From Aquisphaera giovannonii (lineage in GTDB: Bacteria; Planctomycetota; Planctomycetia; Isosphaerales; Isosphaeraceae): 64,000 bases of DNA. Shown here piece after piece: positions 8,263 to 45,221 of this stretch (the stretch's first letter is position 1; each line of letters begins with the position of its first letter). The notes beneath the pieces were generated by a model. The model searched no databases. It saw only the letters and a program-made list of their open reading frames with translations, and had not been told where the DNA came from. The stretch covers positions 8,432,001 to 8,496,000 of the forward strand of contig NZ_CP042997.1 in assembly GCF_008087625.1 (NCBI RefSeq), written 5' to 3'. The translations under genes and the position numbers were made by a program.

Positions 8263-8297
8263 TGACTGGTCAGTGCTTGAAATTCGGGTCCAAATCC

Positions 8298-8356
8298 CGG
8301 GAGGGCGAGGCTCCTGCCGAGCCGTGCGGGGGCTCGGCAGGAGCCTCGCCCTCCCG
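8298..8356. repeat. Palindromic repeat, family A, copy 1
   Basis: A perfect inverted repeat with 26-bp arms (8298-8323 and 8331-8356) and a 7-base loop. Two further copies lie at 17149-17205 and 33804-33861. The flank aaaatcaag.cgtgacaga after the right arm is shared with copy 3. Translated, the family reads GEAPAEP...GSAGASPS, a string often found at the ends of planctomycete proteins. It could also act as a terminator for the RCK gene. Confidence 0.9.
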
Positions 8357-8443
8357 AAAATCAAGGCGTGACAGATCGCGATGGATGAGGATGGAGGAAC
8401 CGGCGGAACAGCGACTGGCGTGGTGTCGGCATTCGAAACAAAA

Positions 8444-8515
8444 AACCGGCCAGCGAACCAGCAAGGAACGGCTGCCTCTCCCTCAGCCGTACCGTGTTGG
8501 GTCAACTGGCCGGTT
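8444..8515. repeat. Structured unit 1 of the tandem array
   Basis: 72 bases, 10-bp perfect outer stem; inner stem has an A-A mismatch two bases from its base; loop CCTCTCCCT conserved. Confidence 0.8.
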
Positions 8516-8577
8516 AGACTCGGGCGGGTCTTCGGGAACCTGCCCTCGTGTGCGCTCGGCGGTTGCCGGTGTAGGAA

Positions 8578-8649
8578 AACCGGCCAGCGAATCAGCAGGG
8601 TACGACTGCCTCTCCCTCAGTCGTACCTTGCCGGGTCAACTGGCCGGTT
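8578..8649. repeat. Structured unit 2 of the tandem array
   Basis: 72 bases; outer stem identical to unit 1; perfect 9-bp inner stem GTACGACTG/CAGTCGTAC that extends to 14 pairs including one G-T. It is followed by a GGCGGGT/ACCCGCC hairpin at 8657-8678. Confidence 0.85.
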
Positions 8650-8710
8650 AGACTCAGGCGGGTCTTCGGGAACCCGCCGTCGTGTCCGTCAGTGATCGAT
8701 GCGTGTTTTG

Positions 8711-8781
8711 AACCGGCCAGCGAATCGGTGCAGTACGACCGCCTCTCCCTCGGTCGTACGGTAACGATTGCACTGGCCGGT
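8711..8781. repeat. Structured unit 3 of the tandem array
   Basis: 71 bases; inner stem GTACGACCG/CGGTCGTAC differs from unit 2 by a compensated T-A to C-G change; internal-loop sequences diverge from the other units. Confidence 0.8.
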
Positions 8782-8838
8782 AGCTGCTGGGGCCCTGCGA
8801 GACCGGCGAACTCCGCCGATCGAGGACCGTGTGGAAAA

Positions 8839-8910
8839 AACTGACCAGCGAATCAGCAAGGTAAGACCGCCTCTCCCTCAGCCTTACCTTACCGGGTCAA
8901 CTGGCCAGTT
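8839..8910. repeat. Structured unit 4 of the tandem array
   Basis: 72 bases; outer stem AACTGACCAG/CTGGCCAGTT carries a pair change and one mismatch; the inner stem has several A-C mismatches, which are G-U pairs on the minus strand. On that strand the unit is followed by a T run. Confidence 0.75.
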
Positions 8911-8960
8911 GGCTTCTGGCCGGCGTCGGGCCTTTCGGGCCCGGCACCTCTGCGTGTGAG

Positions 8961-9004
8961 AAAGGGCGAGCGGGGGGTCGTGCGAGGCATCCCGCTCGCC
9001 CTTT
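8961..9004. repeat. 14-bp-arm inverted repeat after the structured array
   Basis: AAAGGGCGAGCGGG (8961-8974) and its perfect complement (8991-9004) with a 16-base loop. On the plus strand the stem ends in CCCTTT, so it could terminate transcription through the array; a U tract is weak. Confidence 0.65.
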
Positions 9005-9385
9005 GGCGGTGAGCCAGTTCACCGAGGTGAACCGACCGTCGCCAGTGGGGTGGCTGCTTGTAAGTTGTCAAGGTGCGGCGAGGACTTCGATTCGCAATTG
9101 CTCGTCTCGTCGTCTTCTGCGTCACACGGGATAGGGAAAAAGCAAAGGCAGTGCCAGAACCATTTCGGCCCGCCGCGGAGGCCGGATTTCGGCCCAAGAT
9201 GCCCCCGCCCAGGGTCCGATCATTGAAGGAAGTTCGGCACTTACGTCGAACGGGAAAAATGTCGAAATCCGGCCGCCGCGGACGGAATATCGGAGTACCG
9301 ACCAGCCTTCGCCAGGTCCGCCCGTCCGTTTCCTAGGCAAGCCCGCACAAGAATCCGGCAGAGCCGTCCGGCGAGCCGGTGGCTC
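9005..9385. other. Gene-free stretch upstream of the 9386 gene
   Basis: About 380 bases. A small plus-strand open frame (9073-9336) has no ribosome binding site or recognisable motif and is not called. The composition is slightly less GC-rich than coding DNA, as expected for a promoter region. Confidence 0.5.
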
Positions 9386-10687
9386 ATGAATCGAGGCCGA
9401 TACGTCCCCATGAAAGCCCCCCAAATTGACGCGTCCGCGGAGGTCGAGTCGAGTCTATCGACGGCAATCGGGGCATGGACCGAGCGCGGCCGGCCCGGCC
9501 CGTTGGAGCGATGGCTGGGCCGCCATCTCGATGAGGATGGCACCCCCCATCGAATTCCCCACGACCCGTCGTCGCCCATCCTGGACTCTTTGCTCACGGC
9601 TCGCGGCGAGCGGCCGGGCTGGCCGGATCGGATCGACGAACGACTGGGCCAGATCGTCCGATGCCTCCTCCGGACCTCGAGGGTCGACCTCACGCCCGCG
9701 ACGCGAGCGGCCGGCTCCGCCGATGCGACACTCGCGAGGGCGACGCTCGTCCGCTTCGCCGAATCCTTCCCGCGATCGGCGGAGGCGCAGGTCATCGCCT
9801 GGTGGGTCCGCGGCGTCCCGGCCCCGCACGTGCCGCCGCCGCTGCCGGCCTGGTCGAGCGCCCGACGGGCGATGGCCGTGCTCCGGCCCGGCTGGCAGAA
9901 GGCGGATGACCTCCTCGTCGTGGATCACCGCCAGGCCGGATCGACGACCGACATCGGCCTCGTGGGCGCTGGAGTCCCCTGGCTCGGCCCCTCGTGGCAG
10001 GCACCCTCATCCGAGGAAAGGGCGACCGCGGCCCGGCCGACGTTCTGGCAATCCACCTCCGCGGCCGACCTCTTCGAATGGACGTTCACCGTCGGCGGCC
10101 TCCGGCACACGCGATCCGCGCTCCTGCTCCGCGGGCGCAGCCTCGCCCTCCTGGCGGACCAGGTCGAGGGCCAACCGCTCCGGGCCGCCGCCCCCGGGCC
10201 CGCCGAATGCACGATCGCCCTCCCCGAGGGGATCCAGCCGGCCCCCATCGCGGGCTCGCGCGGCCTCCTGCTCCGCCCGTCGGAGGGCCGGAAGTCGGCC
10301 CAGGTCCTCCCCGTTGCCCTGCCCTGCGCGGACTACCAGACCGACCTCGGCCGGTTTGCGATCGCGCCGGGGGGGCGTCTTTCGATGGCCGTCGCGCCCG
10401 CGGGTCGTCGTTGCTGGCTGCCGCTGCTCGTCTCGTGGGACGCGGCCCGGCATCGCAAGACGCTGAGCTGGCGCGTGCTGACCGTTTCGCAGGACTCGAA
10501 GATCTGCGGCCGGGACGTCGCCCTCGCCGTCCGCGTGAGCTGGGGGCGGGAGGAGACCTTCGTCATCTACCGGAGCCTGGCCGCTCCCGCGTCCCGGGTC
10601 TTCCTCGGCCACCAGACGGGCGCCCGCTTCCTCGTCGGCACGTTCTCGACCGACGGCGACGTCGAGCCGATCCTCGCGGTGGAGTGA
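9386..10687 (+). CDS. Conserved hypothetical protein, beta-rich
   Basis: A 433-residue protein with no signal peptide or membrane segment. The first 160 residues are helical. The rest alternates short strands, including FEWTFTVGGLRHTRSALLL and GRSLALLADQVEG, which resemble the C-terminal beta-sandwich of heparinase II/III-type proteins. The resemblance is at pattern level only and no catalytic residues were identified. Start: ATG 9386; an in-frame ATG at 9410 (MKAPQIDAS) is equally possible. It stands alone downstream of the structured array and ends 30 bases before the convergent small membrane protein gene. Function unknown. Confidence 0.7.
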   Translation: MNRGRYVPMKAPQIDASAEVESSLSTAIGAWTERGRPGPLERWLGRHLDEDGTPHRIPHDPSSPILDSLLTARGERPGWPDRIDERLGQIVRCLLRTSRVDLTPATRAAGSADATLARATLVRFAESFPRSAEAQVIAWWVRGVPAPHVPPPLPAWSSARRAMAVLRPGWQKADDLLVVDHRQAGSTTDIGLVGAGVPWLGPSWQAPSSEERATAARPTFWQSTSAADLFEWTFTVGGLRHTRSALLLRGRSLALLADQVEGQPLRAAAPGPAECTIALPEGIQPAPIAGSRGLLLRPSEGRKSAQVLPVALPCADYQTDLGRFAIAPGGRLSMAVAPAGRRCWLPLLVSWDAARHRKTLSWRVLTVSQDSKICGRDVALAVRVSWGREETFVIYRSLAAPASRVFLGHQTGARFLVGTFSTDGDVEPILAVE

Positions 10688-44345: not shown

Positions 44346-44481
44346 TTCAAGACGTGATATCATCATATGGTTAATAACCGTCAGTTCCACGGTGTCCTTC
44401 CGGCACGCAAGGCGTCGGGGTTACGAGGCGGGGGAAGACCAAACGGGGGAAAGCCAAACGCAGGAGGGAGCCAAAGGGCCG

Positions 44482-45221
44482 GGTCGCCCCGGGTGATTGC
44501 TCACCCGGGGCTCCCGCAGATCCGGACGTGCGGATTTCCCGCATCCGGCTCGTCATCCCAGGAGTCCGCGGCCTGCGCGGCCCGTCGTCGTTGCGTGGAC
44601 ATGGCCCCGGTCTCGGTGTACCGGTCATGTTTCCCTCCGACGGGTCCCGAGATGGCGCCTCCTTCCCTCCACGGGGTCCCTCGGGCTGGTTCCCCCGCCT
44701 CGTCGGTACTATGAGGCGCTCCGACTCCCCGCCGCCCGTCTCGGCCCGCTTCGTTGCCTTCGCGAGCCCGATACCATCGCTCCGCCCGTGATTCGCTCCC
44801 CTCGGCCGTGGGCGACCCACCGGGGGCCTGGGAGTTTGGTCATCCGGCCTCCCGATCCGGAGGTTCGATGGAGACGTCGGGGCCTCCCAAGTTCCCGGGG
44901 AACCCTGATGGCCGTTGCCCGTGCTCTCCGACCCCGGCGGGACCGGGCGCGCCCTGTGGGGCCAGGTGCGGCGACGCCCGGCGCGGCCCCCGCCCATGAC
45001 CACGACGAGGGCTCCCCGCGCCTTCCATTTTCGGGGCTCAATCACACGACCTTCGGCCTGGCTGTCTACGCTTCGCAGGATGGGTCGCCCCATCGCCACG
45101 CAAGACTCGCTTCTGGCTGCTGGCCCGGCTCTGCCAGGCGGGATTGGTTACCCGCAGGGCTCCGACGAAAGGTTTCCGAGTTCGAGCTCATCCTCCTTTC
45201 CACAGGCTTCACTTGGCGCAA
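44482..45221 (-). mobile_element. Group II intron remnant lacking its reverse transcriptase gene
   Basis: The minus strand carries a complete domain V (44518-44551) followed by a domain VI-like hairpin (44487-44510). The 5' end is probably at TTGCGCC, complement of 45215-45221, close to the GTGCG consensus; both ends are approximate. Between them the sequence contains intron core-like stretches (for example CGGAGCCCTGCGGGTAACC and GGGAACTTGGGAGGCCCC) but only about 740 bases in total. No reverse transcriptase/maturase frame exists; a start-like ATGTCCACGCAACGACG is followed within 60 bases by domain V, as if the coding part was deleted. Confidence 0.7.
44518..44551 (-). ncRNA. Group II intron domain V
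   Basis: 34 bases on the minus strand, beginning GAGCCGGATGCGG and ending ACGTCCGGATCT. It has the catalytic AGC triad at positions 2-4, a GAAA tetraloop, a two-base AC bulge and two helices of the expected lengths, all as in the domain V consensus. Confidence 0.85.

Follow-up and report, generated by a model that had tools for sequence, protein, structure and literature searches.

Here, we report an RNA family, so far undescribed but of a familiar general type (a sigma-54 small RNA, possibly a sponge), the 3' part of which is a tandem hairpin array in the planctomycete Aquisphaera giovannonii. The array lies in a window of 64,000 nucleotides (contig NZ_CP042997.1, positions 8,432,001 to 8,496,000), the whole stretch of DNA that was analyzed. 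Comparison with homologous loci has shown a predicted RNA on the minus strand with a promoter, a conserved 5' module, a hairpin B, and 1 to 7 covarying hairpins A with the frozen loop GGGAGAGG. Its build is unusual, with duplicated terminator-like hairpins that have one invariant G-rich loop in common. Our tentative reading, to which we give slightly less than an even chance, is that the array forms the 3' part of a trans-acting minus-strand sigma-54 RNA whose loops titrate a CsrA-type protein.

Hairpin array and its strand

Features of the locus (window coordinates) are as follows.

8443-9130, minus: predicted transcript, from the positions of the promoter and the hairpins with U-runs; start near 9130, 12 nt past the -12 GC
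8444-8515, minus: hairpin A unit 1 (last transcribed), loop AGGGAGAGG, then TTTTTTGTTT; a terminator-like site is reported here on the minus strand
8578-8649, minus: hairpin A unit 2, loop AGGGAGAGG, then TTTT
8712-8781, minus: hairpin A unit 3, loop AGGGAGAGG, without a U-run (TTCAAAAC)
8839-8910, minus: hairpin A unit 4 (transcribed first), loop AGGGAGAGG, then TTTTTT
8961-9004, minus: hairpin B with a stem of 14 bp; its loop core reads TCGCACGA on minus (CCTCGCACGACCC in most); two-sided change in 8 of 14 stem pairs
9005-9055, minus: 5' region, AGCCACCCCACT (complement of 9044-9055), then a GGCGAC/..CGCC helix around a variable hairpin; kept in most homologous loci
9141-9156, minus: sigma-54 promoter TGGCAC-TGCCT-TTGCT (-24/-12), consensus match
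9170-9365, minus: partly conserved blocks upstream of the promoter (CGTAA; TGC..TCTTGnGC..TGCC at about 9336-9364), from conserved columns

Read on the plus strand, the loop is CCTCTCCCT, present once per unit (at 8475, 8609, 8742, and 8870), and the unit-to-unit spacing is 134, 133, and 128 bases. Fold energies of units 1 to 3 were far beyond those of shuffled sequences on both strands, and unit 4 beat its shuffles on the minus strand only (z, -4.6 on minus versus -1.5 on plus). Within the window's four sequences alone, two-sided change was modest (6 of 28 pairs). An alignment of 35 homologous units from many genera held two-sided compensatory changes at 16 of 19 stem pairs (124 changes, versus 40 in shuffles), and the signal collapsed in slid registers. 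Every A loop was GGGAGAGG or a close variant (the core itself in 74 of 76 units on the minus strand), with GGAGAGG invariant in 76 of 76 and a variable first loop base (A, T, G, or C). At the level of sequence comparison, the array is thus confirmed as a structure under selection in single-stranded form, its stems covarying and its loop frozen.

Strand assignment to minus is settled on sequence criteria by four independent signs, namely, wobble asymmetry, U-runs, the conserved sigma-54 promoter, and a like asymmetry in a second family. The A stems, read on plus, would contain 9 G-T and 47 A-C mismatches, which on the minus strand become 47 G-U and 9 A-C; in hairpin B, 5 G-T versus 13 A-C were counted on plus, and the A-C read as G-U on minus. 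Register-free folding was more stable on minus for 66 of 73 distinct units, with 311 G-U pairs versus 58. A U-run followed the hairpin in 46 of 75 units on minus and in 0 of 75 on plus; the orthologue of unit 3 in a related genome (G002) is likewise without one. Fourteen distinct hairpins of the second family (f3), read on their promoter strand, held 28 G-U versus 1 A-C.

An earlier note on this DNA, made from the window alone, had described four tandem units with covarying stems and an invariant loop, a claim made decisive by the 35 homologous units. The covariance-model search that it had suggested, built from the four units, recovered homologues with covariation in relatives, often in tandem. 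It had also considered that the units might belong to a transposable element, which they do not, there being one locus per genome in most species. Its interpretation thus stands as to a selected, nonmobile structure; it had left the strand open, and of its two options the plus-strand reading is not supported. As to extent, the four-unit array was correctly drawn and yet incomplete, since a longer conserved transcription unit, of which the array forms the 3' part, extends to about 9156.

Two other features were seen in the window. A near-perfect inverted repeat at 8292-8362 (GGAGGGCGAGGCTCCTGCCGAGCC) resembles a dispersed repeat of planctomycetes and gave only chance-level microRNA-model matches, and a group II intron at 44478-45147 (minus) had two Rfam matches above the gathering score.

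Promoter, 5' region, and distribution

Read on minus, the promoter is followed by the 5' region, hairpin B, and the hairpin A array. The pattern TGGCAYN5TTGCW matched the 64-kb window once (9141-9156; 0.04 matches expected), placing a -24/-12 promoter of the form GG-N10-GC at the 5' end of the RNA. Promoter scores of at least 10/12 were found at the corresponding place in 43 of 47 homologous loci, and one of the four loci below this score (L070) does show a site in the alignment. rpoN was found in 57 of the 59 genomes, including all 43 of good quality. Predicted RNA lengths run from about 296 nt, at the first terminator-like hairpin, to about 691 nt for the whole array, and the conserved blocks at 9170-9365 are possible activator sites. 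In the 5' region, the helix of 9005-9008 with 9040-9043 was paired in 100% of cells.

With a broader model, hairpin A was detected in 43 of the 45 genomes of Isosphaeraceae, both nonmatching genomes being incomplete assemblies. Module B (model R3) matched 39 of 45, the named matches being the Isosphaeraceae genera Singulisphaera, Paludisphaera, Aquisphaera, and Tautonia. Hairpin copies per genome ranged from 1 to 7 (one in most genera, four in Aquisphaera, and up to seven in one genus), and beyond the four units, the covariance model built from them gave no further convincing match anywhere in the 10.5-Mb genome. In arrays of six and of seven hairpins (L081 and L084), two stem types alternate on a constant loop. 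Some loci carry module B alone; it is duplicated in tandem in L130, L131, and L094, the first two without a nearby hairpin A. Loop B was also considered as a pairing partner of some genomic target, and this was discarded, the complement of the loop not being enriched.

Past the conserved block, most genomes have a plus-strand gene of unknown function, followed by yggS and aroA; in the window, this is a conserved protein without a Pfam match (9386-10687, plus) that adjoins the RNA. The gene that flanks the array on its other side shows no conservation.

Matches to the hairpin model also came from genus g6 and from family f3 (perhaps Gemmataceae), where module B was not detected; weak R3 matches in f3 were left aside, as the loop B core was missing. 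All eight g6 and f3 loci that were read were preceded by a sigma-54 site in the same orientation, having been recruited by the hairpin model alone, which contains no promoter. The f3 version is minimal, with a sigma-54 promoter, about 30 nt, and a single hairpin with the same loop. A search of 397 genomes of the class for the promoter plus GGGAGAGG yielded about 20 f3 loci with a clear hairpin (typically 19 to 24 bp with a nine-base loop), and reversed-pattern controls gave about a quarter as many matches as that pattern. GGCGAGAGCC, a GNRA-looped hairpin of three pairs, stands at the start of many f3 RNAs. Because the promoter, the terminator position, and the identical loop are shared, homology of the f3 RNAs is favored over convergence.

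Candidate partners of the frozen loop

In the proposed mechanism, a condition that activates sigma-54 (a stress or nutrient signal, acting via some activator) would start leftward transcription from 9141-9156, and the RNA would accumulate. The U-run hairpins would end transcription, so that read-through would set the number of loops per molecule; unit 3, without a U-run, may be read through. The loop would be the working part and the contact point, since it is frozen on drifting stems. Loops could then occupy a GGA-recognizing CsrA-type protein and release the mRNAs that it represses, with tandem copies giving more binding sites per transcript. CsrA-type proteins are the leading, still unproven, candidate partner, with base-pairing to CU-rich mRNAs as the chief alternative.

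The loop sequence AGGGA agrees with the CsrA motif ANGGA. GGA motifs sit in the hairpin A loops, and over the RNAs, each taken to its first terminator, there was no GGA enrichment (219 observed versus 225 expected). csrA was found in 45 of 45 genomes (7 to 13 genes in most and 4 to 6 in some incomplete ones), so its presence provides no correlation. One csrA paralogue (MLVLSRKLGEKIVIG..KIDRNQ; loci L234, L239, L245, L251, L253, L261, L263, and L270) is preceded, at a fixed distance from its start (-83 to -101), by a sigma-54-like site in 8 of the 9 orthologues examined, with a score that 1.3% of random 25-nt windows equal. Several of these orthologues have a GGGAGAG leader beside the start codon, which may simply be a Shine-Dalgarno sequence. 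A strict sigma-54 score was reached by 4 of 40 csrA leaders, which limits the link between csrA and sigma-54 to some paralogues; in a survey of Planctomycetia, csrA (COG1551) was enriched among sigma-54 targets (PMC12316311). Against CsrA, the conserved octamer exceeds what the protein needs, which is little beyond GGA, and most species have a single loop, few for a sponge. Titration of CsrA by the loops, already put forward in the earlier note, has gained circumstantial support and is possible, although we would place it somewhat below an even chance. A wider proposal appears rather unlikely to us at present, namely, that this deeply conserved sigma-54 RNA family of Hfq-less planctomycetes would be the missing antagonist of their expanded CsrA paralogues, with sigma-54 driving both csrA and the RNA, terminator loops imitating the csrA leader, and tandem duplication tuning the number of sites.

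The same minus-strand sigma-54 RNA might instead use GGGAGAGG as a base-pairing seed for CU-rich, CCUCUCCC-like mRNA stretches, an alternative that we consider unlikely but a serious one. An invariant eight-base loop on freely drifting stems is typical of seeds, and in RepG a terminator loop is already known to serve as one (PMC8295292). Hfq was found in 0 of 59 planctomycete genomes (search controls were positive), and Hfq-type pairing is therefore ruled unavailable, though RepG-like RNAs can manage without Hfq. Moreover, CCTCTCCCT barely outnumbers its reversed control across the genome (260 versus 222), and many of its copies lie in a dispersed repeat unrelated to the RNA. The octamer was accordingly rejected as a genome-wide target signal, as AGGGAGAGG/CCTCTCCCT pairs about 107 bp apart mark this GC-rich repeat, which was seen at L004, L005, L007, and L008 as GTTAGGGAGAGGGGG with an inverted copy at that distance and is the source of many CCTCTCCCT sites. 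That the hairpins are merely strong terminators between convergent genes, with the loop as a by-product, would suit the minus-strand hairpins with U-runs and the convergent upstream gene in the window; it is improbable, as a terminator needs neither a loop of eight bases frozen over two families, nor tandem copies, nor its own conserved sigma-54 promoter, and unit 3 keeps stem and loop despite its missing U-run. Still less credit is due to an action in cis, in which loops A and B would kiss (GGG:CCC and GAGG:CCUC) and govern termination or read-through. Complementarity in these two blocks does exist between the invariant loops, but the idea was rejected on the duplex energy, no better than that of shuffled B loops (86% were as good), on a lineage with loop B changed and loop A unchanged (G010 and G027), and on the A-only relatives in genus g6 and family f3.

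Two further readings are highly improbable. A plus-strand element would present C-rich loops over Shine-Dalgarno sequences, an option of the earlier note that found no support, or would be the 5' leader of the gene at 9386, which in about 35 genomes does keep this order and its plus-strand orientation. Wobble asymmetry, U-runs, and promoter all indicate minus, and second RNA copies occur without the neighboring 9386-type gene; the leader version was dropped after the wobble count, with the conserved block being a minus-strand sigma-54 promoter. An element acting as DNA (a mobile repeat, a REP/BIME-like repeat, or an integron-like recombination site) would fit tandem palindromes spaced by about 130 bp and can be given scarcely any credence either, given a single locus in this genome without dispersed copies, a conserved gene neighborhood, strand-asymmetric wobbles, and a sigma-54 promoter. 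The module B core had zero matches in viral contigs, which also led to rejection of a phage or viral origin.

Relation to known regulatory RNAs

Rfam 15 gave zero matches at the gathering threshold for the window locus and ten related loci, a permissive Rfam search of the locus region gave chance-level matches only, and literature searches returned no description of the RNA family. To our knowledge, almost no small RNAs have been described from planctomycetes, which carry many csrA genes and had no Hfq in any of the genomes searched. The family provides a concrete RNA, defined by promoter and structure, that nearly all Isosphaeraceae have and that reappears in a second family, and its frozen eight-base loop predicts a single specific partner. 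A substitute for Hfq-type or CsrB-type regulation thereby becomes testable in cultured Singulisphaera, Paludisphaera, Aquisphaera, and Tautonia.

In gammaproteobacteria, CrcZ/CrcY, Qrr, and GlmY/GlmZ are likewise noncoding RNAs driven by a sigma-54 promoter, and CrcZ is a multi-site sponge. They work with Hfq, which is absent from the planctomycetes searched, and no relation of sequence or structure to the planctomycete RNA was found. In Helicobacter pylori RepG, the loop of the terminator hairpin is the conserved functional element (PMC8295292); that loop is C/U-rich and targets G-repeats, whereas the planctomycete loop is G/A-rich, and the two are not homologous. CsrB, CsrC, RsmX, RsmY, and RsmZ are alike in their repeated GGA-bearing hairpin loops, CsrA-rich hosts, and varying copy number. 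The planctomycete RNA differs from them in its sigma-54 promoter, in GGA not being enriched elsewhere in the RNA, and in the putative status of CsrA binding, and where the CsrB type has many short GGA loops, it has long hairpins, one to seven in number, that carry an invariant octamer.
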